64,000 nt of DNA, from NCBI GenBank assembly GCA_003023725.1, contig PXYT01000005.1:3022-67021 (forward strand), written 5' to 3'. Below are positions 10,473 through 54,667 of the stretch, piece after piece. Origin of the DNA: Sulfobacillus benefaciens. GTDB lineage: Bacteria > Bacillota > Sulfobacillia > Sulfobacillales > Sulfobacillaceae. Numbering within the stretch: the stretch's first letter is position 1; the number at the start of each line of letters is the position of its first letter. A model generated the notes under the pieces. That model saw only the letters and a program-made list of their open reading frames with translations, was not told the origin of the DNA and made no database searches. The translations under genes were made by a program, and so were the position numbers.

Positions 10473-10540
10473 GCTCACGGATAAGAAGACTGCCCCTCTT
10501 TAAGAAGAAAGAGCGTACCCGCCTATGAACACCGGATGAG

Positions 10541-22007: not shown

Positions 22008-22050
22008 ATTGCATCAAGACAGAGATCTTGAGAATCTCCCAGGCTTTTTA
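21995..22050 (+). terminator. Riboswitch-controlled intrinsic terminator
   Basis: AAAAGCCTGGGAGATT pairs with AATCTCCCAGGCTTTTT, a stem of about 16 bp that ends in a T-tract. Its 5' arm overlaps the 3' edge of the aptamer, so terminator and aptamer are mutually exclusive. Confidence 0.9.
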
Positions 22051-22098
22051 TATATCACCCCTCCCGAGAACTCCCGGAGGGGAGAAGGAGTGGTTGTA

Positions 22099-22821: not shown

Positions 22822-22870
22822 ACACAGAAATCCAAAAGATCGGCTAAACGAAGAAAGGGTGAGAAATCAC

Positions 22871-23521: not shown

Positions 23522-23529
23522 GGGAGACG

Positions 23530-27156: not shown

Positions 27157-27180
27157 CATCCTGCCCAGGGTCGACAAACC

Positions 27181-27207
27181 TGTGCCGGCAGGCTTTTCGC
27201 CGGCACA
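27181..27207 (+). other. Hairpin between carboxylase and the next gene
   Basis: TGTGCCGGC and GCCGGCACA pair perfectly (9 bp) around a 9-base loop just before the next ribosome site. It may damp expression of the last gene or stabilise the upstream message. Confidence 0.6.
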
Positions 27208-27225
27208 TCACTCAGGAGGGAACCG

Positions 27226-27609
27226 ATGAAAATATTTGTCAACGGAGAACTGATGCGCGGCTTGTCCATGCATAAACTGCTCACGGATGCCGAGTTCATT
27301 AGGGAGGCTTCTACCGCTCCGATTTATCGCCTATTTTCGATTGACGATCAATACCCGGCCATGGTCATGGCCCTGCCTTTCGAGGACGGTTACTCCATTC
27401 CCGGGGAAATTTATCACATACCCGAGGAGCTGTGGCCTCGCATCGCCGCCAATGAAAGACGCTTGGGCCTGTATCCCGGTCCGATCTGGCTGGCAGACGG
27501 ACAGGCCCTGCGCGGAATCTTGTCGGTGCGGGAATTATGCGAAGGCTATGAGGACATATCCCGCTATGGCGGCTGGCGCATCTATTGCGAAACGAAATCG
27601 TCCTCGTAG
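27226..27609 (+). CDS. Free-standing allophanate-hydrolase C-terminal domain, 127 aa
   Basis: ATG 27226 follows AGGAGGG. The protein matches the C-terminal domain of AtzF/DUR1,2 allophanate hydrolases (a gamma-glutamylcyclotransferase-like fold): KIFVNGELMRGLSMHKLL, STAPIYRLFSIDDQYPAM, GEIYHIPEELWPRI and DISRYGGWRIY. The catalytic amidase domain that normally precedes it is absent here. In full-length AtzF this domain decarboxylates the product of the amidase. As the last gene of the guanidine operon it probably completes allophanate breakdown with an amidase encoded elsewhere. Confidence 0.8.
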   Translation: MKIFVNGELMRGLSMHKLLTDAEFIREASTAPIYRLFSIDDQYPAMVMALPFEDGYSIPGEIYHIPEELWPRIAANERRLGLYPGPIWLADGQALRGILSVRELCEGYEDISRYGGWRIYCETKSSS

Positions 27610-29382: not shown

Positions 29383-30894
29383 TCACACGCCACTTTCGGG
29401 TGCCGGCGTTTGGTGCTCCAACATCGCCCCTAAATCCTCCTCCGAAGCGCCCGGGCTCTGAAGTGGCCATAACTTGTTCAAACCTAAGTGAAAGAGAAAT
29501 CCCAGCCCGAAACTGAGAAACCACGAATAATTGATCAAGTCTTTGAAGGCGGGAATAATCCAACCAATCCATGCCACCGAAAAACCCAGGGCCGTGGCCG
29601 CGACTCCCCGCCAATTCCATCCCCGGATAAAGCGGTAGCGGCCTTTAGAACGATACAACTCCCACACAGAGTATTGCCGGCGGTGAACGAACCAGTAATC
29701 CGCTATCATAACCCCGGCGATACTGCCCAAACTGCCCCCGAATCCGTTCAACATAATGGCCATAAATCCCGACGCACTGGACAAGAGAGCCCATGGGCGA
29801 AGAATAATTGACAATAGAGCCGTGATCAAAGCGCCTGTGCTAAAGCGGATCATGCGGGGCCACAAATTGGAGAGGTCATTGGCAGGAGCTACCACGTTTG
29901 CGGCAATGTTCACGGACAGCGACAGAATAATCACCGACACCAAACCTATGACAACAATAAAACGATTATGCAGCAAGGCTATCAGTTGCACAGGGTCCCA
30001 GATAAAATGCCCGTAAATCTTTTCGCCCGCCGATGTGATCAAAATACCCATAAAAGCGAAAAACGTCATAGTCGTCGGCAATCCCAAGATCTGGCCCCAT
30101 ACCTGTTGTTTTGGCTTCCGGGCATAACGGGTAAAGTCGGCCATGTTAAGAGACAACGTCGACCACATGCCCATCATAGCCGCTACGCCCGCTAAAAACA
30201 CGGGCCAAAAGCTGTGGTAGTGAGCGGGTTGATGGAAAATGGGGCCCAGGCCGTGCGCCTTATTTACCAACATAATCAAAATGACCACGAATACCAAAAG
30301 AATACTGGGACCTGCCCAGTTTTCAAACCGTTTCAGAGCGTCCATACCTTTGTAGATGATCACCACGTTTAAGAGCCAAAACAGAGCAAAAGCGGCCCAG
30401 GTGCCCAGTGGTTGTCCCCACAGGCGGCCCATATGATTCCAGGCCGGATCGAAGGTTAAGACTAATTGATTAATCGCCGAGCCTCCGAGCCAGGTTTGAA
30501 TGCCAAACCACGCCACAGCCACCATAGCCCGCATCACGGCCGCAACATTGGCTCCATGAACCCCAAAAGCGGGTCTGACCGCAACCGGATAGGGTATCCC
30601 GTACTTCGAGCCCACATGCGAATTCAACAAAATGGGAACCAAAATGAGCAACGATCCGATGGTTACTGCCAGCAATGCTTGCCACCAGTTTAATCCCATA
30701 GCCAACAGACTGCTTCCGGCCATGTACGTGGGAATCTGATGGGTCATGGAAATCCACAGAGCACTGTAACTATACGTCCCCCAACTGCGACTGTGACTCG
30801 GAACGGGAGCCAGGTCGTGATTAAACAGGCGGTGTTCTCGCATTACGTCATGAGGCACAGTGCCATCTTGATATGATGACGGAAGCGTATCCAT
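29383..30894 (-). CDS. NCS1-family nucleobase-type permease, 503 aa
   Basis: ATG 30894 follows GGAGGG. The N-terminus HDLAPVPSHSRSWGTYSYSALWISM is the NCS1 signature, followed by about twelve helices, with YGIPYPVAVRPAFGVHGA, AWFGIQTWLGGSAI and SLNMADFTRYARKPKQQ all typical. The GSIAGVMIADYWFVHRRQY segment near the end is also characteristic. NCS1 proteins import allantoin, hydantoins, cytosine or uracil with a cation. In this neighbourhood a pyrimidine or ureide substrate that feeds the enzymes at 41-51 kb is plausible but unproven. Confidence 0.88.
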   Translation of the reverse strand: MDTLPSSYQDGTVPHDVMREHRLFNHDLAPVPSHSRSWGTYSYSALWISMTHQIPTYMAGSSLLAMGLNWWQALLAVTIGSLLILVPILLNSHVGSKYGIPYPVAVRPAFGVHGANVAAVMRAMVAVAWFGIQTWLGGSAINQLVLTFDPAWNHMGRLWGQPLGTWAAFALFWLLNVVIIYKGMDALKRFENWAGPSILLVFVVILIMLVNKAHGLGPIFHQPAHYHSFWPVFLAGVAAMMGMWSTLSLNMADFTRYARKPKQQVWGQILGLPTTMTFFAFMGILITSAGEKIYGHFIWDPVQLIALLHNRFIVVIGLVSVIILSLSVNIAANVVAPANDLSNLWPRMIRFSTGALITALLSIILRPWALLSSASGFMAIMLNGFGGSLGSIAGVMIADYWFVHRRQYSVWELYRSKGRYRFIRGWNWRGVAATALGFSVAWIGWIIPAFKDLINYSWFLSFGLGFLFHLGLNKLWPLQSPGASEEDLGAMLEHQTPAPESGV

Positions 30895-31022
30895 TTTCAA
30901 TCCCTCCGACTCAATTGTGGTGTGGATGCCTTATATCGGCATCAAGCTAACACAGGTTCACAATGCAATGATAGGAACTTCGCACAAGGCATAGATGAAT
31001 GCCGCATTTTTGCCGGGCCCAT

Positions 31023-40748: not shown

Positions 40749-41195
40749 TTGACAACGTCCCGAATCCAAAGAGTGTTTGCCAATAAAGCCCCTCAGCCAA
40801 TCGCCCCGTTTTCCCATGCCACATGGGCCGGCGATTTTCTGTTCGTGACAGGGCAAATGCCCATTGATCCGGTCACCAACCAATATCTAGACGGCGGCAT
40901 CTCAGAACAAACCCATCAGGTTATGTCCAACTTGCATCAGGTATTAGCCGCCGCGGGTCTGTCGTTTCACGACGTCGTATCGGTGAGGGCTTTTCTCGCG
41001 GACATGACAGACTATAATGCCTTTAATCAGGTCTATCAAACGTATTTTTCACCCCAGAATCTGCCGTCCCGAACCTGTGTCGGTGTAAACGGCTTGGCTG
41101 GCGGTGCCAAAGTGGAAGTGGATTTAGTGGCCATGAGAGGGGAAACCGGCGGTATTATGGAATCTCCGTCATTAGGGGAAAGAAGGGGGCAATGA
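40749..41195 (+). CDS. RidA/YjgF-family protein, 148 aa
   Basis: A TTG at 40749 with AGGAG upstream starts it. The RidA pattern is complete: PQPIAPFSHATWAGDFLFVTGQ, QTHQVMSNLHQVLAAAGLSF, VVSVRAFLADMTDYNAFNQVY and SRTCVGVNGLAGGAKVEVDLVAM with the conserved Arg. RidA-type proteins hydrolyse reactive enamines/imines, and the Rut pathway of pyrimidine breakdown includes a relative. The amidase gene starts one base after its stop, so it belongs to this operon. An extra 15 residues end it. Confidence 0.88.
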   Translation: MTTSRIQRVFANKAPQPIAPFSHATWAGDFLFVTGQMPIDPVTNQYLDGGISEQTHQVMSNLHQVLAAAGLSFHDVVSVRAFLADMTDYNAFNQVYQTYFSPQNLPSRTCVGVNGLAGGAKVEVDLVAMRGETGGIMESPSLGERRGQ

Positions 41196-41196
41196 T

Positions 41197-42207
41197 ATGT
41201 TCCACAAGCTCAAAGCCAAACCAGACACCGTGCATTGGGGATATTTCGACAATTCTTTGCCGGCGGTACTGCGAGCCACATCGGGGGACATCATAGAGGT
41301 AGAGACGATTACCCATCAGGCCGGGGATGCCCCGGATCTGCTAATGGATGAAGAGATTCGGGACATTTACCAGACCATTCCCTTAAAAGACCGTGCCCCA
41401 GGCGTCCACATCATGACCGGCCCCATTTATGTCGAGGAGGCAGAACCGGGAGACACTTTGGAGGTTCGGTACCTGGATCTTCGTCCCCGCTTATTGTTCG
41501 GCAGTAATGCGGCCGCACCCTGGGGCTATCTTCACACCGAATTAGGAAGCAAAGCACGTGTCACCATCTTCGAAATTGATGCCCAGCTAGGCTTTGCTCA
41601 GGCTCTTTATGCCTTTGACTATCCAGGCGCTTATGATAAGCCCGGGCAGATCGTCTCGGATGACATTCGCAAAGAATCCAGTTTACAGGGCATCCGGATT
41701 CCTTTGAATGCGCATATTGGAACGGCGGGTGTTGCTTTGAACACGCCGGGGCGCATCAGCACCATTCCTCCCGGAGAGCACGGCGGCAATATTGACAATT
41801 GGCGCATCGGCCAGGGCTCCAGCATGTTTTATCCCGTCCTGGTACCTGGAGCCCTATTTTCGTTGGGAGACCCTCATCTCGCCCAGGGCGATTCCGAATT
41901 AGACGGGACGGCCATCGAAGCATCTTTACACGCCACCATCGAAATCATTCTCCATAAGCACATGACATTGCCCGCGCCTCTGCTGGAACTCCGTGACGCC
42001 TGGTATCTTCACGGCTTCGGCGACACCTTGGATGAGGCTATGAAAGACGCCGCACTGGCCATGCTGGATTACCTGACACAATACCGGAACCTAAGCCGCA
42101 ACGATGCGTACGCGTTGCTGAGTGTCGCCGGCCATTTCGGCATTACACAAGTAGTGGATAGACGTATCGGTGTGCATGTGTCATTGGCCAAATCCCTTTT
42201 CCCCTAA
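41197..42207 (+). CDS. Acetamidase/formamidase-family hydrolase, 336 aa
   Basis: ATG 41197 overlaps nothing and is coupled to ridA. FmdA/AmdA-family signs are HWGYFDNSLPAVLRATSGDII, the GVHIMTGPIYVEEAEPGDTLEV beta segment, NAHIGTAGVALNTPGR, PPGEHGGNIDNWRIGQGSSM and the SLGDPHLAQGDSELDGTAIE region. Family members release ammonia from formamide or short amides. In this operon it would release nitrogen from an amide product or from formamide. Confidence 0.88.
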   Translation: MFHKLKAKPDTVHWGYFDNSLPAVLRATSGDIIEVETITHQAGDAPDLLMDEEIRDIYQTIPLKDRAPGVHIMTGPIYVEEAEPGDTLEVRYLDLRPRLLFGSNAAAPWGYLHTELGSKARVTIFEIDAQLGFAQALYAFDYPGAYDKPGQIVSDDIRKESSLQGIRIPLNAHIGTAGVALNTPGRISTIPPGEHGGNIDNWRIGQGSSMFYPVLVPGALFSLGDPHLAQGDSELDGTAIEASLHATIEIILHKHMTLPAPLLELRDAWYLHGFGDTLDEAMKDAALAMLDYLTQYRNLSRNDAYALLSVAGHFGITQVVDRRIGVHVSLAKSLFP

Positions 42208-42434
42208 GTGCTGCCGAGTCGACGAGGGCTGTTCGATTCCGAACATAGTAATCTCGAGCAATCTCTATTGTTTTGGTTAAATACCCAAAACTCTGTCGGA
42301 GGGATTACACGCGGCGACACAACTGTGTAATATTCTGACCAAGTCGATGACTGCCTTGGCTGATATAGACTGTCGCGGTTCTATCAAGCGCCATCGATGA
42401 TCTGCACGTATCCACGCTAAGAGGTGAAGCCTGA
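42208..42434. promoter_or_regulatory. Intergenic region with a possible operator
   Basis: ATTACAC (42304-42310) and GTGTAAT (42325-42331) form a 7-bp inverted repeat ahead of the molybdenum hydroxylase genes. It could be a binding site or weak terminator. Confidence 0.3.
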
Positions 42435-42926
42435 ATGCCCCGCTTGCTGAAAACACACTACAGCGCCGTCGTTACCGTCAACGGCCATGTTCACCGGCTT
42501 ACGGTGCCGGGCCATGAACGGCTCCTGACCACATTGCGGGAGAGGCTCCATCTCTTTTCCGCGCGTTACGGGTGCGGCACGGGACATTGTGGCGCCTGTG
42601 TTGTGTTGGTTAACGAAGAACCGGTTCCCAGTTGTCTCTTACTCACCGTACGGCAACAAAAGAACCGCATTCAAACGCTGGAAGGACTGAAAAAGGATAG
42701 CCTGTTGGCACAACTGATGACATCGTTTGCCGAAGAACATGCGGCCCAGTGCGGCTATTGCACACCAGGTCTTCTTCTCAGTGCACGGCATCTGTTAAAA
42801 ACCTGCCCCTCGGCTACGGAGTCCCAGTTGCGCGAAGAATTGTCTTCACACATCTGCCGGTGCACGGGATATTATGCGCCTCTCCGCGCCATAGCCAAAG
42901 TGAGAGATTCGTATGCGGTGGATTGA
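42435..42926 (+). CDS. Molybdenum hydroxylase, [2Fe-2S] subunit, 163 aa
   Basis: The two-domain ferredoxin small subunit of the xanthine dehydrogenase family. The plant-type cluster uses C47, C52, C55 and C67 (ARYGCGTGHCGACVV). The second cluster uses C106, C109, C141 and C143 (AAQCGYCTPG, HICRCTGYY). All eight cysteines are present. It passes electrons between the molybdenum centre and FAD. Its stop overlaps the next start by 14 bases. Confidence 0.93.
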   Translation: MPRLLKTHYSAVVTVNGHVHRLTVPGHERLLTTLRERLHLFSARYGCGTGHCGACVVLVNEEPVPSCLLLTVRQQKNRIQTLEGLKKDSLLAQLMTSFAEEHAAQCGYCTPGLLLSARHLLKTCPSATESQLREELSSHICRCTGYYAPLRAIAKVRDSYAVD

Positions 42927-43686
42927 AGCCCACACTATTCGGCAAGTACAGCGGTGTTTGAGCGCGAATGTTCCCATTGTTGGGGGAGGGAGCTGGCTTC
43001 TGAGTGACGGATCGGTTCCGGAAGCGGTCTGCGACTTGAGAGAATATCCATGGGCTCAGGGGATAACGGGGAATGAAAGCGGCTGGATGATAGGTCCCGA
43101 CGTCACGCTCAGTCAGTGGCTTCAAGCCTTGGACTCCGAGAACGTGATCGCGGAAGTCATCCGTAAAATGGGAACGCCAATTTTCCGCCGGGTGGCCACC
43201 GTCATTGGGGCGGTCGCAAATCCGCAGCCGGTGGCGGATTTGTATCCTGTTATGCGGCTTTTGGGGGCGGACATTTTTTACATCGATCTCCACCACGACA
43301 GCATTCAACACGAAAAACTGATGTGGCCCTTCCGAGCGAACCCCCGGGCCCTCGTGGGCCTATGGGTTCCCGCGTCCACGCCTTACCGCTTTATTGCCTT
43401 CCGCAAATACACCAAAGGCCGGTTGACCCGGGTGTTGTTGAATCTGGGAACAGGACTAGCCCAACAAGGAGACATTATGACCGCTGATTTTGTGATAGGC
43501 GGATTGTCACAATGGCCGTACGAGGACAGGGTAGCCGGAGCGTCTCATAGCATATCGCACCAAATATCTCAAAGACTCCGGAACCAGGGAAACATTACCC
43601 CCTTTTACCAGGCCCTGATCATGGAAATGTGTGACGATGTCCTGAACCAATGGGAACACCGAGCAGACAGGAGAAGCGAATTATGA
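42913..43686 (+). CDS. Molybdenum hydroxylase, FAD-binding subunit, 257 aa
   Basis: A short FAD-binding (CoxM/XdhB-type) subunit. The flavin-phosphate loop reads VPIVGGGSWLL, and FRRVATVIGAVANPQPVADLYPVM resembles the second FAD motif. The sequence is more divergent than most, and the C-terminal domain is small. Start ATG overlaps the previous gene and its end overlaps the large subunit, so the three are made together. Confidence 0.82.
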   Translation: MRWIEAHTIRQVQRCLSANVPIVGGGSWLLSDGSVPEAVCDLREYPWAQGITGNESGWMIGPDVTLSQWLQALDSENVIAEVIRKMGTPIFRRVATVIGAVANPQPVADLYPVMRLLGADIFYIDLHHDSIQHEKLMWPFRANPRALVGLWVPASTPYRFIAFRKYTKGRLTRVLLNLGTGLAQQGDIMTADFVIGGLSQWPYEDRVAGASHSISHQISQRLRNQGNITPFYQALIMEMCDDVLNQWEHRADRRSEL

Positions 43687-45839
43687 GAATGTGGCCCTTA
43701 AGCACATATCCCCGCTACGCGCCGGACTGGCTCGATCTTCACCCGGAAGCGTTGATTGGGGGGATTCTCGAGGCTCCGGCAGCTCCCGCCCGCTGTGCGA
43801 TTGACAATCTGGAAGAATTGCGAGGGCTGCCGGGAGTAGAAACCATTTTGACGGCAAGTGAGGTGCCGTGCTATCCCTTTACCACGGCCGGGCAACCGGA
43901 ACCCGAGCCTTCGCCGTACGATACCTTGATTCTAAATCCCCTCTCCCGCTATCCGGGAGAACCCGTCGCCCTCATGGCCGCCTCATCCCTGGACGCACTC
44001 TACCACATCCGGCAACGCGCAAAAATCACGTACGAACCTTGGTATGGTCCTTTGCATGACCAACATCCTAACAATGTTGCCGAAGCCGTGCACTATTCCA
44101 GCGGACCCGCTGCGCCTTCCGAGGCCGACAGCGAGCGCTTTAAGACCACGATTCACGTGGGACGGGTTAGCCACATGCAATTGGAGCCGCACGCAGCAAT
44201 GTGTTCTTTCGACGAAGAGAACAGGCTCGTCATCATCACCACGACCCAGGTTCCTTACCACGTGAGACGTATCGTGGCCCGGGCATTGAACTGTCCGGTT
44301 TCCCGAATTCTCGTCAAGGCGACGGACGTCGGCGGTGGGTTTGGCGGCAAACAGGAAGTGATTGTCGAACCCTGGGTAGCCATACTCGCTGTCAAGACAG
44401 GCAAGCCGGTGAAAATGATGTTAAGCCGCCGTCAGGAATTCATTTTGACCCGAACACGCCATGCGGCCACATTGACCGTAGAAAGCCAATGGCACGGACG
44501 ACAAATCCGGGAAATCGCCATGAGTGCCGACGTTGAAACCGGACCTTATGCGTCCCACGGTTCGACAGTCGCTCATAATATGGGGTTGAAATCCCTGCCG
44601 CTGTATCGTGCTGAAGCGTACCACTTTAATGCTAGCGTTCGCTATACCCCAGGTCCCGTTGCCGGTGCCATGCGCGGGTACGGAGGGCCCCAAGGAGCCA
44701 TGGCCGTGGAAACGCATCTCAATCAAGTTGCCGCGAGAAAAGGGCTCTCGCCCTGGTGTCTTCGCCACAAGGTGTTGGCCCAAACAGGCGATGCTCTTGA
44801 CATTTTTACGGCCGCGTCAAGCTTCAAACGCATCCATCACACCAATCTCCGAAACCTTCTCTCACGAACCCGCGATGCCATTGGGGAAGGCTCACCCATG
44901 GCCACTGGAGAAGGAATAGGTCTCGCCATGAGCATGCAGGCCAGTGGTGTCCCCGGCAGCGAATTGGCTGAGGTCTCGATTGGCGTGGATGAAGACGGAA
45001 GCCTGTTTGTCAAGACTGGAGCCATCGACATCGGGCAAGGAGCCCGCGAAACCCTTTCCAACATTATCTATGACGCCTTACAATTGCCGCGGGGCCATGT
45101 GCCCATTTCCTTTTCCATGGGACAAACCCAGGACTTTGGCTTTGACTACGGAACCTATGCGTCGTCCACGACCTATGTGAGTGGTCTGGCTGCTTATAAG
45201 GCGGCTGGGATCGTACGCCGCAAAATGGAATCCTTGGCCCGCAGCATGATGCGTCATTCCGAACTTAAGGACACACCGTTGAGTGAGTGTTGGACTGCCC
45301 TCGCCCATAGCAGTTTTTACGGTCCCCGCCGCCACCCCGTAATGGGGCACGCGGTGGCAAGACCCTCGGATTCGCCTGCGCCCTATGCAATCGCGGCTGT
45401 CCGCTTGACCGTTCATGACAACGGAGAGTTGGTTATTCACCACATCGTCATTGGTGTCGATGCCGGCAAACCTATTAACCCCAGGGGGTTCCGCGGACAA
45501 ATTGAAGGAGCCGTCATTCAGGGCCTGGGCTATGCCTTGTGGGAAGAATTGGAGCTGGATCACAGCGACACCCATGTTCTCAATCCTTCCTTGTTCGACT
45601 ATGCCTTGCCGGCCCCCCAGGACATTCCTCCACTGGACATTATCATGGCCCAGACTGAGGATCCAACCACACCCCTCGGAGCTAAATCCGTGGGGGAAGT
45701 TGCATTGGCTCCTATAGCTCCGGCCATTGTGGGCGCCATTTTTCGGGCCAGGGGGATCTGGATGAGAACACTCCCAATCACACGGGAGAAATTATGGAAC
45801 GCCCTGATGGCACAAAGAGAAACCGTGACGCCCTCATAA
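43683..45839 (+). CDS. Molybdenum hydroxylase, Mo-cofactor subunit, 718 aa
   Basis: ATG 43683 follows AGGAGAAG; the frame from 43650 overlaps too far. Xanthine dehydrogenase-family landmarks are HMQLEPHAAMCSF, VKATDVGGGFGGKQEV (first Mo-cofactor segment), GPVAGAMRGYGGPQGAMAVE, the IDIGQGARETLSNI segment and, at the end, TTPLGAKSVGEVALAPIAPAI with the conserved catalytic Glu (GE). It should hydroxylate an N-heterocycle such as a purine or pyrimidine; substrate not readable. It is about 50-60 residues shorter than common XdhA subunits. Confidence 0.92.
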   Translation: MRMWPLSTYPRYAPDWLDLHPEALIGGILEAPAAPARCAIDNLEELRGLPGVETILTASEVPCYPFTTAGQPEPEPSPYDTLILNPLSRYPGEPVALMAASSLDALYHIRQRAKITYEPWYGPLHDQHPNNVAEAVHYSSGPAAPSEADSERFKTTIHVGRVSHMQLEPHAAMCSFDEENRLVIITTTQVPYHVRRIVARALNCPVSRILVKATDVGGGFGGKQEVIVEPWVAILAVKTGKPVKMMLSRRQEFILTRTRHAATLTVESQWHGRQIREIAMSADVETGPYASHGSTVAHNMGLKSLPLYRAEAYHFNASVRYTPGPVAGAMRGYGGPQGAMAVETHLNQVAARKGLSPWCLRHKVLAQTGDALDIFTAASSFKRIHHTNLRNLLSRTRDAIGEGSPMATGEGIGLAMSMQASGVPGSELAEVSIGVDEDGSLFVKTGAIDIGQGARETLSNIIYDALQLPRGHVPISFSMGQTQDFGFDYGTYASSTTYVSGLAAYKAAGIVRRKMESLARSMMRHSELKDTPLSECWTALAHSSFYGPRRHPVMGHAVARPSDSPAPYAIAAVRLTVHDNGELVIHHIVIGVDAGKPINPRGFRGQIEGAVIQGLGYALWEELELDHSDTHVLNPSLFDYALPAPQDIPPLDIIMAQTEDPTTPLGAKSVGEVALAPIAPAIVGAIFRARGIWMRTLPITREKLWNALMAQRETVTPS

Positions 45840-45949
45840 CAAGAGAAAACAAGATCAGAAATGGCGGAAACATAACGAAAAGAGACAGGAACAAAGGTGT
45901 AAGCGGACAAAATTAGCCGTATGCGGCGAGAGGATGGGGAGGAACACAC

Positions 45950-46513
45950 ATGCAGGAAATCAATGAAGTCGTAAGCATCCCGGTAAAAGAGGCGTCGGAA
46001 GACTTGCTGGCTCCCTATGGCATTTTTCTGGGAGAAAGCGTGCACCGTCCGGGGCTGTCTATTCCTTTCTATCAAGGCGCGGTAGAAGAGGGCGCCAATT
46101 TGGACTTCGTCTGCTCGGGGCAATCCGTTATTCGCACGGCACGAATTTCCCCCCGGAACACTGAAGTCATCTGGCTGGAATATCATGCAATTTTGACCCA
46201 AGTCTTTATCGGACTGGGAACCCAGCCTTTTGTAATGGTTTTAGGGCGTCCCCAAAAAGAGGCGAGGATCCCTGATTTAAATCAGGTCGAGGCCTTCCTT
46301 TTCCCGCCCGGGCACGGAGTCCTGTTAGGGCAGCGCGTATGGCACGATTTTCCTATGGCTGTTTCGGAACCGGTCACGATCTTTACCATCAATTCCGAAG
46401 AGGTCGTCCAGGCTCTGGCGTCTCAACCCCATCCTGCCGACATGAACCGTGGGGACGTGTATAAAATTCATGTCAAAACCCACACCGGAAAGCATTTGCG
46501 GGTGGAAATGTGA
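45950..46513 (+). CDS. Ureidoglycolate lyase-like (AllA-type) protein, 187 aa
   Basis: ATG 45950 follows GGGGAGG. A cupin-like AllA fold is suggested by IPFYQGAVEEGANLDFV, ISPRNTEVIWLEYHAILTQVFIGLG, PFVMVLGR and FLFPPGHGVLLGQRVWHDFPMAV with the likely His metal ligands. AllA splits ureidoglycolate to glyoxylate and urea. Here it is coupled (TGATG) to the ring-opening hydrolase, so it may act on the ureido product of that enzyme or on a ureidoglycolate-like intermediate. Confidence 0.72.
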   Translation: MQEINEVVSIPVKEASEDLLAPYGIFLGESVHRPGLSIPFYQGAVEEGANLDFVCSGQSVIRTARISPRNTEVIWLEYHAILTQVFIGLGTQPFVMVLGRPQKEARIPDLNQVEAFLFPPGHGVLLGQRVWHDFPMAVSEPVTIFTINSEEVVQALASQPHPADMNRGDVYKIHVKTHTGKHLRVEM

Positions 46514-47598
46514 TGGAAACCCGTATTTTTACCGGCACGATGCAACATCCCGGCGACTTTTCGCAGCTGCACGAAGCCATCGATCGCCGCCAAGTAGATC
46601 CCCAGGGAATCATTGCGATTTTAGGGAAAACCGAAGGAAATGGAGGCCGCAACGATTTTAGCCGCGATTTAGCCGTCGAAATCAGTGGCCGTCTTTTGCA
46701 TGACTACCGCAAGACAGAAGGATCGCCCATTGATGATTCCGTTCTGTTGTCGTTTTCCGGCGGAACCGAAGGAATCGTTACCCCACACTACCGGGTGTTT
46801 GAAATTGGCGCCGGGCAGTCCGCTAGGACGGCACATAAGCGCCTAGCCGCGGGACGAGGGCGAACGCGAAACTTCCTGCCGCAAGAAGTCGGGACCACAG
46901 CCATGGTGTATGAAACCGGACGGGTCGTCACCGACATTATTGGCAAGGCGGGAATAGACCCTGACGATGTTCACTTCGTCCATATTAAAGGGGCGTTGCC
47001 GCGGGAAAATCCGCCGACTTCGGAGCGCAACACCATGGCCTACTCGCGGGGAGCCTCGGCTCTTGGGGTTGCACTGGCCTTGGGAGAAGTCGGCAAAGGG
47101 GCGATAGCCGACGATATTATTTTGAAGGACTGGACGCTATATAGTGAACGGGCCAGCACTTCAGCCAAACCGGGACTCCCCTACTCGGATATCCTGGTCC
47201 TGGGCAATTCTCCCCTGTGGGATTCTCCGTTCGTGATTGACCACACGGTAATGCAAGATATTCTTGACACCGAAAGCGTCCTGGCATTAATCAAGAGATT
47301 GGGCCAGGGTTCTCTCAATGGGACAGCATCTCAAATCGCCCCCAGATGGCACGGCATTTTTGCCAAGGCCGAAGCCGACCCTCGTCAAATGGTTCGCGGG
47401 TTTCGGCACACCATGCTCTCGGATGACGACATTGGAGATACCCGTTATGCCCGCTGCGTTGTGAGTTCGATTTTGGCCGCCCTCACCGGCACCTCCACCG
47501 TATATGTTTCCACCCGTGCCGAGCATCATGGGCCGCTCGGCGGGGGACCCGTCGCCATGATCGCTGCCATAGATGCTGACGCCTCGTCATCATCCTAA
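46513..47598 (+). CDS. Barbiturase/cyanuric acid hydrolase-family enzyme, 361 aa
   Basis: The start ATG overlaps the previous stop. The three repeat units of this family are visible. Unit one has SFSGGTEGIVTPH. Unit two has SRGASALGVALALGE. Unit three has STRAEHHGPLGGGPVAMIAAID. Each repeat contributes Ser and Lys to the active site. Family members open the ring of barbiturate or cyanuric acid. A molybdenum hydroxylase that could make barbiturate from uracil lies just upstream, so barbiturase is favoured; a cyanuric acid hydrolase (AtzD/TrzD) is the alternative. Confidence 0.88.
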   Translation: METRIFTGTMQHPGDFSQLHEAIDRRQVDPQGIIAILGKTEGNGGRNDFSRDLAVEISGRLLHDYRKTEGSPIDDSVLLSFSGGTEGIVTPHYRVFEIGAGQSARTAHKRLAAGRGRTRNFLPQEVGTTAMVYETGRVVTDIIGKAGIDPDDVHFVHIKGALPRENPPTSERNTMAYSRGASALGVALALGEVGKGAIADDIILKDWTLYSERASTSAKPGLPYSDILVLGNSPLWDSPFVIDHTVMQDILDTESVLALIKRLGQGSLNGTASQIAPRWHGIFAKAEADPRQMVRGFRHTMLSDDDIGDTRYARCVVSSILAALTGTSTVYVSTRAEHHGPLGGGPVAMIAAIDADASSSS

Positions 47599-47658
47599 GG
47601 CCATCGCTCGCCTCCCGGTCAATATGACAAGGGGTATCTTATACGAGGGGGAATCGCC

Positions 47659-48531
47659 ATGAAATTATGCCAGTTTACACGAGATGGCATACCGGGAACC
47701 GGACTGTACCATAACGAACACAGTCTGTGGGACGTTTCCAGCATGCTTCCTCCGGGAATATCACTCGTCGATTGCCTGATGGAAAGCTACTGGAGACAGC
47801 AGCTGGAACACATTGTCACCTCAGAAGCGGCGAAACTAATCGCCTTGAGTGATATCCGCTGGATGTTGCCTTGTGCTCACCCCGGCAAAATTATTGGGTT
47901 GGGCTTAAACTATCACAGACACGTCCATGAAACACCATACCAACCTCCGAAATATCCCGTATATTTTCTGCGGTTACCTCATACCCTGGTAGCCCACAGT
48001 GAACCGCTTAAGATCCCGGCAGGGGAGAACACACTGGATTTTGAGGGGGAACTGGCTATCGTTATCGGTCGTCACCTGTACCAAGAGACGGGTGACGGTC
48101 TTGTGACCGCCATAGCCGGATACAGCATCTTCAATGACGCATCGGTCCGCAGTCTTCAGTTTCGCGGCCCCGAATGGACCTTAGGCAAAAACTGCCGGGC
48201 AACCGGCGCCTTCGGCCCCTGGCTAGTCAGCAGAGATGAATTGGTTATGAGCGAGCACGGAATCTGCGCCTTGAACCTGACAACCCGGGTGAATGGGGTC
48301 ATCTTGCAACAAGCTTCTACAGAAGACTTAATATTTTCGATTTTGGACATTCTTCGTGACCTCAATCAATTTATACCGCTTGACCCCGGAGACATCATTT
48401 TAACCGGTACGCCGGAGGGTGTGGGCTTCACCCGAATCCCTCCCCTCTATTTGAAACCGGGCGATGTCGTGGAAATATCTCTGCAAAATGCGGGCACCTT
48501 AGTCAATCCGGTAGAAGGGACGAATTTATAA
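47659..48531 (+). CDS. Fumarylacetoacetate hydrolase-family protein, 290 aa
   Basis: The FAH fold shows GKIIGLGLNYHRHVHET, the metal-binding LDFEGELAIVIGR, YSIFNDASVRSLQFRGPEWTLGKN and ILTGTPEGVGFTRIPP. Metal ligands are the Glu/Asp in DFEGE and the Asp in NDAS. The family cleaves C-C bonds or decarboxylates 1,3-diketo acids. The malonyl-ureide made by barbiturase is a beta-keto-type acid, so a role on it or on its product is possible. It overlaps the amidase gene by one base. Confidence 0.86.
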   Translation: MKLCQFTRDGIPGTGLYHNEHSLWDVSSMLPPGISLVDCLMESYWRQQLEHIVTSEAAKLIALSDIRWMLPCAHPGKIIGLGLNYHRHVHETPYQPPKYPVYFLRLPHTLVAHSEPLKIPAGENTLDFEGELAIVIGRHLYQETGDGLVTAIAGYSIFNDASVRSLQFRGPEWTLGKNCRATGAFGPWLVSRDELVMSEHGICALNLTTRVNGVILQQASTEDLIFSILDILRDLNQFIPLDPGDIILTGTPEGVGFTRIPPLYLKPGDVVEISLQNAGTLVNPVEGTNL

Positions 48532-49718
48532 TGTTGCATGATCCTTGGCACGCCTTTATCGATTCCTCATGCCAAAAATCTCCTCAGCTCGAGGGTCCTT
48601 TAAACGACACGACTTTTGCGGTCAAGGACGTCTTTGACGTCGAAGGCTGCATCACTTCCGGCGGCAATCCGGACTGGCGCCGTACTCACACCCATGCCAC
48701 CCAGAGTGCCCATGTTATTGGACAATTGCTTGCATCGGGTGCCACGCTTCGGGGAAAGACCCATACCGACGAACTGATGTATGGGCTTAATGGGGAGAAT
48801 GCGCATTATGGGACTCCAATCAATCCCAGGGCACCGGAAAGGATTCCCGGCGGATCATCCAGTGGCTCGGCCGCTGCCGTCGCAGGAGAATTGGTTGATT
48901 TCGCGCTCGGCACTGACACAGGAGGCTCGGTGCGGATACCTGCCAGTTACACCGGAATATTCGGCTACCGTCCAACAATCGGTCGCATTTCCCTGCAAGG
49001 AGTGATTCCTCTCTCCCAAACGTTTGACACGGTAGGATGCATGGCCCGCTCCCCAGCCCTTCTGGAAAAGGTATCTTCGGTGTTATTGAATGAGCCGGTC
49101 TATTCTTCCACTCAGCCGTTTTCCCGCGCCATTATTGCCCAGGACGCATTAGCCCAACTGGATCAGGAGCTGGCTGCCACGGCTGACTCGCAAATTCGCC
49201 GGATCACCGCCTCATTTTCGTCCGTGACCCGTGAAATCATTGCCGCAGACGGATTGGATGATTGGAGCCAGGCCTTCCGGATTATTCAAGGATATGATAT
49301 CTGGAGAAATTTCGGAAAATGGATTCTGGAAAACCAACCCCAATTTGGACCCGGATTCCACGAACGCTTTTACTGGACCAGGACCATCCGGGTGGAAGAC
49401 CGCAATGCCTGGTCTCAAAAGTGGCTGAGTTGGCGGGAAGAGTTGTGGGATCGTCTCAGAGATGATACCATCATTGTTCTTCCCACGGCACCCGGCCTGC
49501 CGCCCAAGAAGAACACCCCGCCTCATCTCCTTAACCCTTTTCGCGACCGAGTACTCCAATTGACGTGCATTGCAGGTCTAGGCGGACTGCCCCAAATTTC
49601 CATACCAGTGACAGCTGTAGACGGTGTGCCTTTCGGACTGTCGGTGATAGCCGGTCCGGGGCTGGACGAGGCTTTATTGTCCTGGGTCAGGATCCACATG
49701 GGGGAGGGCAAAGAGTGA
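48531..49718 (+). CDS. Amidase-signature hydrolase, 395 aa
   Basis: The Ser-cisSer-Lys triad is present: Lys32 in FAVKDVFDVEG, the Gly/Ser-rich GGSSSGSAAAVAG near residues 106-118, and nucleophile Ser near 132 in GTDTGGSVRIPASYTGI. GKTHTDELMYGLNGENAHYG is typical of AMI1-like amidases, shorter than AtzF. Start and stop are coupled to both neighbours. Two roles fit: hydrolysis of the ureido acid released by the ring-opening enzyme (ureidomalonase-like), or the missing amidase half of allophanate breakdown. The first is favoured by context. Confidence 0.87.
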   Translation: MLHDPWHAFIDSSCQKSPQLEGPLNDTTFAVKDVFDVEGCITSGGNPDWRRTHTHATQSAHVIGQLLASGATLRGKTHTDELMYGLNGENAHYGTPINPRAPERIPGGSSSGSAAAVAGELVDFALGTDTGGSVRIPASYTGIFGYRPTIGRISLQGVIPLSQTFDTVGCMARSPALLEKVSSVLLNEPVYSSTQPFSRAIIAQDALAQLDQELAATADSQIRRITASFSSVTREIIAADGLDDWSQAFRIIQGYDIWRNFGKWILENQPQFGPGFHERFYWTRTIRVEDRNAWSQKWLSWREELWDRLRDDTIIVLPTAPGLPPKKNTPPHLLNPFRDRVLQLTCIAGLGGLPQISIPVTAVDGVPFGLSVIAGPGLDEALLSWVRIHMGEGKE

Positions 49719-51034
49719 TTACACGGATCCGTCATGCTACGGTGGTCACCATGAATCCCGAACGGGAAATACTCGAAAACACGGACATCTGGATCGATGA
49801 GCGAACCATTGTCGCTATCGGACACCGTGACGCTACCCCGGATCGAACCATCGATGCCGACACCATGATCGCGATTCCCGGCCTGATTCAGCCGCATATC
49901 CATTTATGTCAGACTTTGTTTCGGGGACTGGCGGACGATCTGTCATTGCTCGAATGGCTTTCCGGGCGTATCTGGCCCATGGAAGCCGCGCTCGATGCCA
50001 AAGCTATGCGCATATCTTGCCTGTCGGGAATCGCCGAACTGATAGCCGGCGGCACCACCACCATCTTGGATATGGGTTCGTTGCGTCATACCGAAACTAT
50101 TCTTCAAACCTTATTGGATACAGGAATGAGAGGGTACACGGGAAAATGTCTGATGGACCGTCCCAACCGGTTTTTGATGGAAGGCAGGGAAGAGGCATTA
50201 CAGGAAAGTTACGGCTTGGCTCGCCGGTGGCATAACCGGGACCGGGGCAGGATCCGTTACGCACCAGCGCCCCGTTTCACCCTGTCCGCAAGTGATGAAA
50301 TGTTTGCAGGTGCACGGATCTTGGCCGATACCTTTCGGACGGTGCTTCATACCCATGCGGCGGAAACCCAGGACGAGATTTCGGAAGCGTTAAAACTCCA
50401 TAACAGACCGCCGGTATCCCATCTTCATCATCTCAACGTTTTAGGACCTAATACGGTCATAGCCCACGGGGTGTGGATGAATCCGGATGAAGAGGGTATG
50501 GTCGCCGACACTCGCGCTAAAGTGGTCCATTGCCCCTCCTCCAATCTCAAACTGGCCTCGGGTGTGGCTCCCACCGCCAGGTGGGAACAACACGGAGTAA
50601 CTTTTGGAATTGCTGCCGATGGCGCCGCATGTAACAACTTTCTCGACGGATTTCAGGAGATGCGAACGGCCGCCCTGTTGGCCAAACCATTCTTTGGAGC
50701 CTCGACACTACCCGCTTCCAATATATTCGCCCATGCCACAATAGAGGGCGCCCGGGTCTTGGGATTGGAACAGGAAGTAGGATCTTTAGAAGTCGGCAAG
50801 GAAGCCGACATTGTATTGCTCGATTTCACCGGCCCGCATCATCAGTTGTGGGAATGGACCCCTATTTACAGTCAGCTTGTCTATCAGACGCGTGCAAGCG
50901 ATGTCAGCTTAACCATGGTCGGGGGACAAGTCCTGTACGAAAAGGGGCAGTACCACACTGTAGAGCTGGACGAGATCCGTCACCAGGCTCCTGAAGCTTT
51001 GGCAGGGGTGCTGCGCCGCATGGACAACGGTTAA
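49715..51034 (+). CDS. Amidohydrolase-family deaminase (TrzA/AtzA/guanine-deaminase type), 439 aa
   Basis: GTG 49715 overlaps the amidase stop (GTGA). Metal-binding motifs of the metallo-dependent hydrolases are IQPHIHLCQTLFRGLADDL, TVLHTHAAETQDE, AHGVWMNPDE and GIAADGAACNN. VVHCPSSNLKLASG is the substrate-loop signature of the TrzA/MtaD/guanine-deaminase group. It should deaminate an amino-heterocycle, such as an aminopyrimidine, aminopurine or aminotriazine. In this operon it would act first, making the substrate for the molybdenum hydroxylase. Confidence 0.87.
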   Translation: MITRIRHATVVTMNPEREILENTDIWIDERTIVAIGHRDATPDRTIDADTMIAIPGLIQPHIHLCQTLFRGLADDLSLLEWLSGRIWPMEAALDAKAMRISCLSGIAELIAGGTTTILDMGSLRHTETILQTLLDTGMRGYTGKCLMDRPNRFLMEGREEALQESYGLARRWHNRDRGRIRYAPAPRFTLSASDEMFAGARILADTFRTVLHTHAAETQDEISEALKLHNRPPVSHLHHLNVLGPNTVIAHGVWMNPDEEGMVADTRAKVVHCPSSNLKLASGVAPTARWEQHGVTFGIAADGAACNNFLDGFQEMRTAALLAKPFFGASTLPASNIFAHATIEGARVLGLEQEVGSLEVGKEADIVLLDFTGPHHQLWEWTPIYSQLVYQTRASDVSLTMVGGQVLYEKGQYHTVELDEIRHQAPEALAGVLRRMDNG

Positions 51035-52534
51035 TATTCCCAACGAAAGAGACACAATTTAAGATGGCTTTCAGTAAAAATGGGTGCACCCAAAGCGTTC
51101 AACACAACGTGTGAACAGTGCGTCAGCCCACACTCATTGATTCGCGCCTCGACCGCTCCGGCGCCCCAGACTTCCGTTAGTGGTCTAGATCCTCGGTCCA
51201 TGCGCAGGGACTCGGGATATTACCCACCGGTCAAGAGCCAATATTGTAATTCCTGGCAAACATCAGGGTCAGGAAGAGCTCCGTTCACGACAGAGGCAAC
51301 CGCCAATTCTCATACTGTCTGAGCTTGCCAGTCCAAACGCCGTAGGGGCCAGTCCCCATCCGGTTGGGTTCACTCTCAGCGTTTCCGCATGCTTTCCGGT
51401 GGCGGCGAAATGACACAACACCAATAACCATAATGGTTTCCTCTCGGCACCAAGGGCGACGCCTGAGCCCTTGATGCCACAAACAGGGGCCGGTGTGGGT
51501 CACCCTCCCATCCAGATGCCGCAGAACTAACCAAAATCCTGTCGAACAGTCCCCGCCCACTGCTGCCGTATAATAAAGTCTTCCGCAATCAGGAAACGCT
51601 AATCCCGCGTCATATCTCCTCCCCTGAACGAGGGAGGCTGGCATATGTCCAATTACCATTTATCGCCATTCCCTTCCGTTCATTCGAACAGACATGAAAG
51701 ACAAAAATACCGCTACAATCAGCACATTTCGTCTCAGGATTCTGGGGGATAGGCAAGTGGCCCCGGCGCCTCACAATCATTTGTTTACTTTACTAGACAG
51801 AATGTAGAGATATTACGATCTCGTTGGACAATTTGTAGAGTATCGCTTCACGGAGAATTTAGTAGACTGGCACAAAGGTCACCATTTAATCTGAGCCCTA
51901 TTAGCTAGTACAATAGAATAGTGATGGCGTCCATCTATAGCCGATATCATCACCAACAGAGCTCAAGGTGTTGGCATATCGGATTGGGTATGCAGCGAAT
52001 GCCTGGAGCACCAGCAGCAATTCGGAGCGCAGCCATCCCATGCGAAGAGACCTTGAGCGAGTTATGAAGAGGTGACCCTGATACCCAAAACCGTCCGGGG
52101 CGAAAGGGGAGCCGCCGGCGGCAAAACGCTAAGCGGGGGATTCAGCGGGAACAATGACTTCCGCGAAATGTTTTCATTCGCGCACTGAACAATGAATCGC
52201 GTTGGCCGATGCGGTGTCGATACTCGGAAGGGAAAAGCCACCCCTGAGCATCCTCTTCTTTAAACAATTCCTGTGGGATCGGCCTTTATCCTAGCGGGGA
52301 TGCAAACGCAGTGAACAAGCGCGAACACAGAACGCCAGCAAGTAAAGAAAGTATTGCAGCAACATGTAACAGGCAAAAGCCAGTCGTAAAACAGACACAA
52401 TATTCTGCATATTATGGGAGGGATTCGCCTCACTGTTCCGGCACAGGCTGTTTTGATCGTCAAGTCTTTTTCACGGGTCTGTCCCATATGCCATCTGTCG
52501 TCTCAAACTCTTTGGGTGTTAAAGGAGGTTGCCT
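51035..52534. other. Long intergenic region, no gene assigned
   Basis: About 1.5 kb. None of the ORFs (51080-51322, 51285-51659 minus, 52311-52598) has a ribosome site with a known motif. At 51790-51880 three loosely repeated AT-rich segments with the core TAGA (GACAGAATGTAGAGA, GGACAATTTGTAGAGT, GAATTTAGTAGACT) look like an array of transposase-binding sites. Confidence 0.4.
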
Positions 52535-54628
52535 ATGGACCACAAGATATCGGGCGGGTTCCGACACTGGCTCCCAAAAACCCTGGCCGCGGGATTAGCG
52601 GTGGTGCTCCCGGTTTTTGGCTCCGGATTTTGGGGGCCGCATGCCGCCGATGCGAGCCACCCTCTGGTTCTGGACCAAAATCAAAAACTCCCGGCAGCCC
52701 CCGCCAAAAGCGGGCCACCGTCGTTAGTCCGTTCTTCTTCGCTTCCCGATTTCCGCCACGTCTTTATCATTATGCTTGAGAATCATAGTTATGCGGATAC
52801 CTGGTATGAACACGACATGCCCTATTTGCATCAGTTAGCGAGAACCTACGGGTTACCGACCCAAATGTATGGCATTACCAATCCGACGGTTCCTAACCGG
52901 GTTGGCATCCTGAGTGGCCGGGGGCGGACCATTGGGGACAATGTCAAAGAAGGGCAACTGTCCTACCCGAATCTCATCGACCAGTTGCAACAACACCACT
53001 TCACCTGGGGTGCCTACTACCAGCACACGGAAACGTCTACGGACCAGCACCCCGTGTATAATTTTAATCAAAGTACGCTGTTGCGGTTTCGGGACATCGC
53101 CGACAATTCCTCACGGCGGGCTCACTTACAGACATTTCCCGAACTGAAAACGGCGTTGGCGAATAATACCGTTCCTAATTTCGTGTGGGTAGCGCCGAAT
53201 TTCCTCACCAACTCACATGGGACAGGCCGTCCCGGCCCGTATCAATACACCTATCAGGGGGCCGGGCTAGGGGGAGCCACGGCCCATGATACCCGTCTGG
53301 AAAATTTGGCCAACGGGTTTCTTCAGCGCTGGATTCCCCGTATTATTCACTCCGCGGCTTGGAAATCCGGACCGTCTGCCATCTTTATAACCGAAGATGA
53401 AACCAGTTATGATGCCAGCATGCCCCAAAACGGCAACTGGGCTTCGAATCTCGGCACAGCCGGCAGCCCGTTCGTTTCGAAGGGCACAATTCTCGGGGGG
53501 AATGCTCATTTTCCTTTCCCCGGCGGGATCAACGGAGGCGGCCGCATTCCGGCCGTAGTCATCACCAACGTCGCCGGCCATGTGGTATCCGCTGAACCGT
53601 TTAACCAGTTCTCCATTCTAAAAACCATAGAAGAGGCGTGGCATCTAGGATATCTGGGTCAGGCCGCGAATCCCCAGGTGCACACCATGCAAGTCTTTTT
53701 CCATGGTGGATCGCCACCGGCCCCGGCCGGTTCCACCCCATGGGCGACGGGATCCGGCCCCATTCCGACGAACCGGGACGGGGTAGGCACGACCCCGGCA
53801 ATGCCGGCATTGCCGCCTCAAGCGGTCAATACCCCGGACGCGACCCTCCTGCCGTCATCCGATCCCCATCTAAGTGTGGGAGCCCAGGGACAAGCGGCCA
53901 CGAGTCTCGCCTTATTCCTCACCAATCCTAAAGACTCGGCTGCCGTCACCGGAAACCTCACCCTGACTCTCCAGGGACCCACGGGGGTGAGTTTTGCCCG
54001 GCGATCATCCCCCGTGGGCACCACCCGGGTTTCCAACGCCGATGAGGCAGCGACACAATTCGGTCCCAGTAAGGTGAGTTCCCAGAGCGTGATCGTCCCT
54101 GTGGCTGCCACCGGGACGGTGTCGGAGACCCTTTTCATCACCGGTTTGATGCTCAATGTGACCCCCAATGCCCCTGGGGGTCCGGTGCGGGCCCGTTTGT
54201 CCTCTGGGTCGGTTCAGCTGGGAACCGTCGTCTTAGGCACAATCGGCAAACCCACCGTCCGCCAAGCTCCTAACCTCTTAGCCCCCGTTATCCGTCCCGG
54301 CACGGTTCAGATCCGTTTTATGCCTCCTAACTGCTCCGCGAGTGATTGTTCATCCTCACGACCACGCTACGAAATTGAAATCGCGGGACAAAACCCGCTC
54401 ACCGCCATCGGTCCCAACCTCAACGAACATTACACCGCCTATACCCGCTCGAATTCCGTCCTTATCAGCAACACCGCGGCAGAACTGACGCCGTTAGCCG
54501 GCAAGACCTACTGGGTCCGGGTGCGCATGGTCCCGGGACCGGGGCATAAGACAGCAGTTCCCGGGGCCTGGAGCCTTCCTTTACCCTTTACGGCATTACC
54601 GGGTCCGTTGCCGGCCGGAGTATCCTGA
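52535..54628 (+). CDS. Secreted phosphoesterase (phospholipase C/acid phosphatase family), copy 1, 697 aa
   Basis: ATG 52535 follows AAGGAGG. A signal peptide (LAAGLAVVLPVFGSGFWG, then ADASH) precedes a PF04185-type phosphoesterase domain. Metal and catalytic motifs are HVFIIMLENHSYADTWYEHD, GITNPTVPNRVGILSG, FITEDETSYDASM, INGGGRIPAVVITNVAGH and FSILKTIEEAWHLGYLG. From about residue 400 a Pro/Ala-rich linker and a beta-rich C-terminal region follow. Such enzymes hydrolyse phospholipid head groups or phosphomonoesters outside the cell. It could supply phosphate. A paralogue follows 40 bases later. Confidence 0.85.
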   Translation: MDHKISGGFRHWLPKTLAAGLAVVLPVFGSGFWGPHAADASHPLVLDQNQKLPAAPAKSGPPSLVRSSSLPDFRHVFIIMLENHSYADTWYEHDMPYLHQLARTYGLPTQMYGITNPTVPNRVGILSGRGRTIGDNVKEGQLSYPNLIDQLQQHHFTWGAYYQHTETSTDQHPVYNFNQSTLLRFRDIADNSSRRAHLQTFPELKTALANNTVPNFVWVAPNFLTNSHGTGRPGPYQYTYQGAGLGGATAHDTRLENLANGFLQRWIPRIIHSAAWKSGPSAIFITEDETSYDASMPQNGNWASNLGTAGSPFVSKGTILGGNAHFPFPGGINGGGRIPAVVITNVAGHVVSAEPFNQFSILKTIEEAWHLGYLGQAANPQVHTMQVFFHGGSPPAPAGSTPWATGSGPIPTNRDGVGTTPAMPALPPQAVNTPDATLLPSSDPHLSVGAQGQAATSLALFLTNPKDSAAVTGNLTLTLQGPTGVSFARRSSPVGTTRVSNADEAATQFGPSKVSSQSVIVPVAATGTVSETLFITGLMLNVTPNAPGGPVRARLSSGSVQLGTVVLGTIGKPTVRQAPNLLAPVIRPGTVQIRFMPPNCSASDCSSSRPRYEIEIAGQNPLTAIGPNLNEHYTAYTRSNSVLISNTAAELTPLAGKTYWVRVRMVPGPGHKTAVPGAWSLPLPFTALPGPLPAGVS

Positions 54629-54667
54629 TTAGTTGAAGCAGATTTCATCAAGAAGAGGAGGTTCACA

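Follow-up and report, generated by a model that had tools for sequence, protein, structure and literature searches.

Which ring is broken down by the ten genes that lie in one row in the DNA of Sulfobacillus benefaciens, and by what route? The genes occupy positions 40749-51034 on the + strand of a stretch of 64,000 nt (contig PXYT01000005.1), which is referred to below as the window, and each of their open reading frames (ORFs) was confirmed by profile searches as a member of a named family. A first-pass annotation had listed ten genes of these families in one direction, as the ORF coordinates and profile matches bear out, and had taken them for a composite cluster for the catabolism of an N-heterocycle; this description is supported here, while its more specific proposal, a route through barbiturate to malonyl-ureides, is not. 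The operon is best explained, at a probability that we put near 0.45 and on the strength of sequence comparison, as a uricase-independent route by which purines would be broken down at the level of urate for their nitrogen. The explanation draws on purine genes in three lineages (Acidithiobacillus caldus, the gene order of genome G609, and G011), on ureide hydrolases in several lineages, and on the fact that the uricase, HIU hydrolase and OHCU decarboxylase families of the classical urate pathway are missing. The genes, with a possible importer encoded elsewhere in the window, are the following.

40749..41195, +: enamine/imine deaminase of the RidA/YjgF family (TTG start; Pfam 124.6 bits; TIGR00004 129, above the cut-off of 106)
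41197..42207, +: amidase of the FmdA/AmdA family (Pfam 108.8 bits)
42435..42926, +: molybdenum (Mo) hydroxylase, small [2Fe-2S] subunit, xdhS (Fer2_2 and Fer2)
42913..43686, +: Mo hydroxylase, FAD subunit, xdhM (FAD_binding_5)
43650..45839, +: Mo hydroxylase, molybdopterin subunit, xdhL (MoCoBD_1/2; an alternative start at 43683 or 43689 is possible)
45950..46513, +: AllA-like cupin (Ureidogly_lyase PF04115, 46 bits, cut-off 23)
46510..47598, +: ring-opening amidohydrolase with the Toblerone fold, Group IV (GTG start; Amido_AtzD_TrzD PF09663, 385 bits)
47659..48531, +: FAH-family hydrolase (FAA_hydrolase PF01557, 189 bits)
48531..49718, +: amidase-signature hydrolase related to AtzE and allophanate hydrolase (PRK08310 466 bits, above the cut-off of 391)
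49715..51034, +: metal-dependent amidohydrolase of the methylthioadenosine (MTA)/S-adenosylhomocysteine (SAH)/5'-deoxyadenosine deaminase type (Amidohydro_1; PRK07228 491 bits, cut-off 522)
29383..30900, -: NCS1 nucleobase:cation symporter, a possible importer (TIGR00800 377, above the cut-off of 353)

The model of the ring opener has the Toblerone fold, with a TM-score of 0.86 to 6dhj, and the protein keeps the three Ser-Lys dyads and the domain arginines of this family: K40, S83, K160, S218, K286, S334 and R52 are invariant in 14 sequences, and R180 is present in the window. The AtzD/Bar enzymes were divided by sequence into six groups by Peat et al. in 2013, who gave no substrate to Group IV (Sulfobacillus, Acidithiobacillus); its signature, in AtzD numbering, is Arg195, Met/Thr321, Arg325, Thr345 and Arg346 (PMC3758960). 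At these five specificity positions the window protein carries R, T, R, T and R, and the same signature is found in all 12 members of its clade (the window protein and eleven relatives). The Group IV sequences, A. caldus included, group together in a clade of 100/100 support that excludes both the cyanuric acid hydrolase (CAH) type, to which AtzD belongs, and a barbiturase-type sequence. By signature and clade, the window ring opener is a member of Group IV of the Toblerone family. An additional arginine adjoins the active-site serine in the Group IV enzyme, and the segment from Lys160 to Met176 is approximately 12 residues shorter than in the CAH of Moorella.

The signatures of barbiturases and of CAHs are lacking in the window protein. 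None of the five residues of barbiturases (Group VI: Asn195, His321, Lys325, Val345, Ser/Ala346) is present, and a barbiturase-type sequence (L024) has N, H, K, V and A at the same positions; the barbiturate step of the first-pass annotation thus gives way to a Group IV assignment. Neither Gly345-Gly346 nor the motif SGGxExQGPxGGGP, which mark CAHs (Groups I-III), occurs in the window ring opener (STRAEHHGPLGGGP), which also stays below the NF052395 cut-off (353.6 against 360). The same genome holds a second PF09663 gene, which does have the Gly-Gly signature of CAHs (L010).

The gene upstream of the ring opener encodes a protein with the fold of AllA (Z 18.0, rmsd 2.5, 138 residues aligned to 2bdr). 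However, it falls below every AllA equivalog cut-off, with a best score of 30 bits against cut-offs of at least 160, and the residues NYH and WHH of AllA are not kept in the AllA-like proteins: an alignment shows GVNYHR.VWHH in the Escherichia coli and Pseudomonas putida enzymes and GHG(V/I)......WHD in 11/11 AllA-like proteins. The altered segment suggests that the AllA-like protein catalyses a reaction different from that of AllA.

The arrangement is conserved. The order xdhS-xdhM-xdhL-allA-ring opener-(FAH)-amidase-deaminase recurs in five Sulfobacillaceae relatives (G003, G004, G006, G008 and G011), as the first-pass annotation had suggested looking for, and in G002 it is kept minus the ring opener, which lies on a separate contig. 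Across the five, most of the encoded proteins are 42-76% identical and the FAD subunit 32-45%. This conservation of order and sequence indicates that the gene arrangement is not due to chance. Within the operon, conservation is highest for the AllA-like protein; the [2Fe-2S] subunit is 55-74% identical in six relatives, and in the relatives the amidase is 55-74% and the deaminase 48-76% identical. FAH homologues (42-54% identity) are found in G006, G008 and G011, and no FAH gene was found between the ring opener and the amidase in G003 and G004.

The AllA-like gene was detected in 7/34 genomes of the family, and the same seven carried a ring opener of the PF09663 family in a first search; where family genomes were searched for both, AllA-like and Group IV genes coincide in these seven. 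A phylum-wide search of 299 genomes for the AllA-like gene gave no carrier beyond the window's own genome. In the class to which a Burkholderiales genome belongs, a search of 369 genomes found 3 carriers; a fourth came from a search by order, and plasmids of A. caldus carry the gene besides. AllA-like and Group IV genes occur together in every examined genome that has either, including all five gammaproteobacterial loci. In the contigs of closer relatives that were searched, the ring openers were solely of the CAH type, with 40-43% identity.

It is the neighbourhood of this pair that points to purines. In most of the distant relatives it is accompanied by an enzyme of the xanthine dehydrogenase (XDH) type and a purine-nucleoside protein (NUP), and in two distant lineages by a nearby adenosine deaminase. 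The island of G609 has AtzF, adenosine deaminase, a nucleoside-type substrate-binding protein (SBP) and ABC transporter genes on one strand, and on the divergent strand XDH-L, NUP, XDH-S, XDH-M, AllA-like, Group IV, XdhC, TrtA, AtzG, AtzE, AtzH and MobA-like genes. G715 has this order over the part that was read, and G704 has it without TrtA and with an NCS1 permease. On the megaplasmid of A. caldus, XDH, AllA-like, Group IV, XdhC, AtzG, AtzE, AtzH/HpxZ, MobA-like and gamma-glutamyltransferase (GGT) genes are found; upstream, at a distance of 13-15 kb from XDH, lie genes for a guanine-deaminase-like protein, adenosine deaminase and NUP. In G359, another gammaproteobacterium, the pair has no XDH, purine or ureide neighbours in the stretch read. 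Nearer to the window, the operon of G011 is directly bordered by an adenine deaminase (521 bits, cut-off 472.5) and a permease of the NCS1 family, and BiuH (350 bits to 6azo) and an NCS1-family permease lie beside that of G002. The NCS1 symporter of the window is 46% identical to an NCS1 gene that lies downstream of the operon in G011, and we infer that it is tied to the function of the operon.

The linked hydrolases act on triuret, carboxybiuret and allophanate. The cysteine hydrolase of G609 is a TrtA: it has 12/12 of the residues (D24, F29, F35, N41, K129, K132, A134, E160, C162, Y187, Q202, I205) that are catalytic or separate triuret from biuret hydrolases (PMC7948467), and it scores 281 bits to 6xix and 209 to the biuret hydrolase 6xjm. 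The TrtA of G715 is near-identical to it. The gammaproteobacterial AtzE (51-56%) and AtzH (68-71%) and the AtzF of G609 (50%) are close in sequence to the Pseudomonas ADP enzymes, and the AtzF match lies over the cut-off for allophanate hydrolase. TrtA, BiuH, AtzG/E/H and allophanate hydrolase, which flank the relatives' operons together with the purine genes, process biuret-type ureides and not ureidomalonate; the malonyl-ureide products proposed earlier do not agree with this. A purine route without uricase is further favoured by missing genes: uricase (PF01014), HIU hydrolase (PF00576) and OHCU decarboxylase (PF09349) each matched 0/13 genomes with positive controls, in searches that did not extend to HpxO and PuuD.

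On this basis, the following route may be proposed. The base would be imported by NCS1 or a nucleoside-type importer, its ring amino groups would be removed by the aminohydrolase (elsewhere by adenosine, guanine or adenine deaminase), and oxygenation by the Mo hydroxylase would yield xanthine/urate or a urate-level trioxo ring. The Ser-Lys dyad of the Group IV enzyme would then hydrolyse a cyclic amide in a site adapted by Thr345 and Arg346, while a C-N or C-C bond nearby would be split by the AllA-like cupin; the nitrogens would thereby end up in biuret-level ureides and C5/C6 would be lost as a two-carbon acid. The AtzE-type amidase would hydrolyse the ureides, by way of carboxybiuret and then allophanate, until ammonia and CO2 remain, with helpers that differ by lineage: FAH and FmdA in some, TrtA, BiuH, AtzG/E/H and AtzF in others. 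It is suggestive, by our own reasoning, that the urate atoms N1-C2-N3-C4-N9-C8-N7 make up a triuret chain once C5 and C6 are gone. A wider scheme can be offered tentatively, and we lean against it: Group IV and the AllA-derived cupin would open urate-level rings, the nitrogens would be collected as triuret or carboxybiuret, triuret would be a true enzymatic intermediate, and the atz operon for cyanurate would have been assembled from such purine clusters.

Several observations weigh against a purine route. Adenosine deaminase, PNP/NUP, TrtA and BiuH are all absent from the vicinity of the operon in the window; the purine support for the window is comparative, as the purine-specific genes are not adjacent there. 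The residue equivalent to Glu802 of the Mo hydroxylase is Gln in Sulfobacillus and Glu in the gammaproteobacterial clusters, and the large subunits of the two are only 26-28% identical. Deaminases of the superfamily concerned are promiscuous, and the chemistry that leads from urate to a triuret-level ureide is itself inferred. Finally, AtzG/E/H and AtzF, along with a BMP-type transporter, are also neighbours of the true cyanurate hydrolase gene in Pseudomonas ADP; to tell purines from triazines, none of the linked genes serves except adenosine deaminase, NUP and the purine deaminases.

A triazine route is the next most probable explanation. The Mo hydroxylase would oxidise a dihydroxytriazine (e.g. 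5-azauracil derived from oxonate) to cyanurate, and Group IV would be a variant CAH that feeds carboxybiuret to the AtzE-type amidase, BiuH or AtzF. The conversion of oxonate to cyanurate by xanthine oxidase belongs to general background, for which the literature search gave no usable support. The nearest structures are indeed CAHs, as the TM-score given above reflects, Arg195, Thr321 and Arg325 are retained, and AtzG/E/H/F and BiuH are known to act downstream of cyanurate. On the other hand, Thr-Arg replaces Gly345-Gly346 of Groups I-III, the S-G-G-X-E motif that defines CAHs is missing, the genome has a CAH-signature paralogue, and nothing in this route accounts for adenosine deaminase, NUP and adenine deaminase; we regard it as unlikely. 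The missing Gly-Gly signature speaks against a plain CAH, although the function itself may still be that of a CAH. The fold also accepts rings other than cyanurate and barbiturate, since 5hy0, a Toblerone member, was deposited as an orotic acid hydrolase. Group IV could accordingly be imagined to act on a carboxylated pyrimidine (orotate) or another cyclic amide acid, with Arg346 binding the carboxylate and the Mo hydroxylase and deaminase preparing the ring, and the extra arginine beside the active-site serine would suit such a substrate; yet 5hy0 shares no more than about 30% identity with the window ring opener, and the purine and triuret genes of the relatives would have no explanation, which makes this improbable.

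The pyrimidine route, in which cytosine or uracil would be oxidised to barbiturate for a barbiturase to open, with malonate and urea as the products of its breakdown, would use the same fold, is compatible with a Mo hydroxylase and a deaminase, and could call on the NCS1 permeases near the operons of the relatives, which score as cytosine-permease-like. With the barbiturase signature missing at 5/5 positions and linked enzymes that act on biuret, triuret and allophanate, it has a slim chance at best, and the barbiturate reading was rejected on ring-opener signature and gene context. Ordinary allantoin breakdown, in which the AllA-like protein would be a genuine ureidoglycolate lyase and ring opening a side activity, is hardly credible. 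PF04115 membership, the AllA fold and allantoinase matches in two carriers would agree with it, but the equivalog scores fall widely short and the active-site segment is altered, and this alteration, together with the absence of HIU hydrolase and OHCU decarboxylase, led to its rejection. The models for allantoinase and allophanate hydrolase match nearly all control genomes, and only matches over the cut-off were counted; allantoinase gives such matches only in the carriers G006 and G008 and, as a point against this reading, in G005, which has no module.

Several known systems come close to the operon. The atzDGEHF operon for cyanuric acid of Pseudomonas sp. ADP (PMC6219798; L056) has a Toblerone ring opener and an AtzE-type amidase in common with the window, and the gammaproteobacterial relatives add AtzG, AtzH, AtzF and the BMP-type transporter. 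In contrast, the Mo hydroxylase, the AllA-like cupin and the purine genes are extra, Thr345-Arg346 stands in place of Gly-Gly, and the window has a different amidase and no AtzG or AtzH. The BMP-type SBP beside atzD in Pseudomonas ADPe (L056 2603-3685) is 51% identical to the SBP of G609, hinting that the G609 island and the Pseudomonas atzD cluster share an origin. The oxidative pyrimidine pathway with barbiturase (PMC3758960) likewise places a Toblerone hydrolase after an oxidation step, but with ureide hydrolases of another kind and with the barbiturase signature that is missing here. The pathway trtA-(trtB)-biuH-atzF for triuret provides TrtA, BiuH, AtzF and nucleoside-type transporters that recur in the relatives of the operon; the natural source of triuret was called unknown in that work, and purine/urate oxidation was hypothesised (PMC7948467). 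In archaeal ammonia oxidisers, FAH and a gatA-like amidase lie near biuH; the triuret contigs of nitrifiers have no upstream purine genes (PMC12625717), whereas the relatives described here link XDH, adenosine deaminase, NUP, AllA-like and Group IV genes.

The urate-allantoin-oxalurate pathways of the hpx/all type share XDH, the AllA fold and AtzE/HpxY-, HpxZ- and GGT-type genes with the module. Unlike them, the module has an extra Toblerone hydrolase and, in the 13 genomes, no match for uricase, HIU hydrolase or OHCU decarboxylase. The literature search on this gene combination, or on cyanuric acid with Sulfobacillus or Acidithiobacillus, found these genes only in PMC3758960, where the Group IV homologues have the same signature and come from the same kinds of host; that study concerned sequences only, and the present analysis contributes their genomic context together with a proposal for their function. 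All of the families are known; the combination, the context of Group IV and the proposed route are undescribed in the literature searched, as the first-pass annotation had rightly said of the combination. If the purine route is true, it would provide a substrate class for Group IV, without one since 2013, and a module found in acidophiles of two phyla would tie together Group IV, the natural source of triuret and the triuret pathways of nitrifiers. The proposals can be tested with a handful of purified proteins.

Three enzymes of the operon deserve closer description. The molybdopterin subunit of the window has the equivalent of Arg880, in the motif AMRGYGGPQ, and the Mo hydroxylase scores below the xanthine dehydrogenase equivalog cut-off of NCBIfam (394 bits against 780). 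The gammaproteobacterial clusters have a different subfamily of xanthine dehydrogenases, with motifs of the Glu802/Arg880 type, which suggests that a Mo hydroxylase probably joined the AllA-like/Group IV pair twice. The deaminase, earlier called TrzA-type, does belong to the Amidohydro_1 family, but this label is a loose one: its matches in the PDB are 215 bits to the MTA/SAH type, 134 to AtzA and about 93 to triazine hydrolase, so that it is closest to the 5'-deoxyadenosine/MTA/SAH deaminases and not to TrzA/TrzN. The amidase is 44% identical to AtzE over 152 aa.

Overlaps or near-contacts join most of the genes, as had been noted, and gaps of 227 nt (fmdA-xdhS), 110 nt (xdhL-allA) and 60 nt (ring opener-FAH) qualify that description. 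The spacing between ridA and fmdA is 1 nt; xdhS-xdhM overlap by 14 nt, xdhM-xdhL by up to 37 nt, allA-ring opener by 4 nt and FAH-amidase by 1 nt. The start of the deaminase is probably at 49715, where it overlaps the amidase by 4 nt (GTGA), instead of the GTG of the raw ORF at 49565. A scan for promoters and terminators gave no informative signal, with 11 promoter-like sites against 7.6 expected and fewer terminators than expected. RidA and FmdA may form a separate transcription unit. RidA was seen in the window and at none of the other operon loci examined, and is peripheral to the operon. An FmdA homologue (44%) lies near the operon of G008, and one of 35% inside a ring-opener cluster of Skermanella; in G002 (L036 1092-1548), FmdA is reduced, upstream of the operon, to fragments in two frames, as would fit an accessory gene in decay.

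Ring openers were also met in other settings. Locus L011 (G006:C82) has, in one row at 5620-11101, an ABC ATPase, CbiQ-type transporter genes, FAH, an atypical ring opener (SGGTEHQAPLDHAP) and a protein of the arylmalonate-decarboxylase family. Ring openers about 42% identical to the window protein are common on enterobacterial plasmids; on a Serratia plasmid (L023, 8909-16550) a ring opener is found with an NCS2 permease, DUF2877, FdrA, DUF1116 and carbamate kinase, a set of the oxamate carbamoyltransferase type. A Pseudanabaena plasmid (L059, 3278-8081) carries hpxO, uraD, puuE, a ring opener with the CAH signature, a stand-alone allophanate hydrolase C-domain and uraH; this urate cluster hints independently at a place for Toblerone enzymes in the breakdown of purines.

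The remaining observations concern genes near the operons. At 22009-27609 (+), the window encodes UAAP1, UAAP2, a urea carboxylase (1688 bits), which we presume might be a guanidine carboxylase, and then a stand-alone C-terminal domain of allophanate hydrolase (127 aa) without the amidase half. Just downstream of the G011 operon (L014 15402-19771) lie a second NCS1 permease and a second enzyme of the XDH type, with the motifs GGKED and AFRGFGAMQ. The operon of the window is followed at 52529-56605 by two tandem large ORFs, both PF04185 phosphoesterases, and that of G002 (L036 12041-16140) likewise by two large tandem ORFs, the first of which is PF04185.

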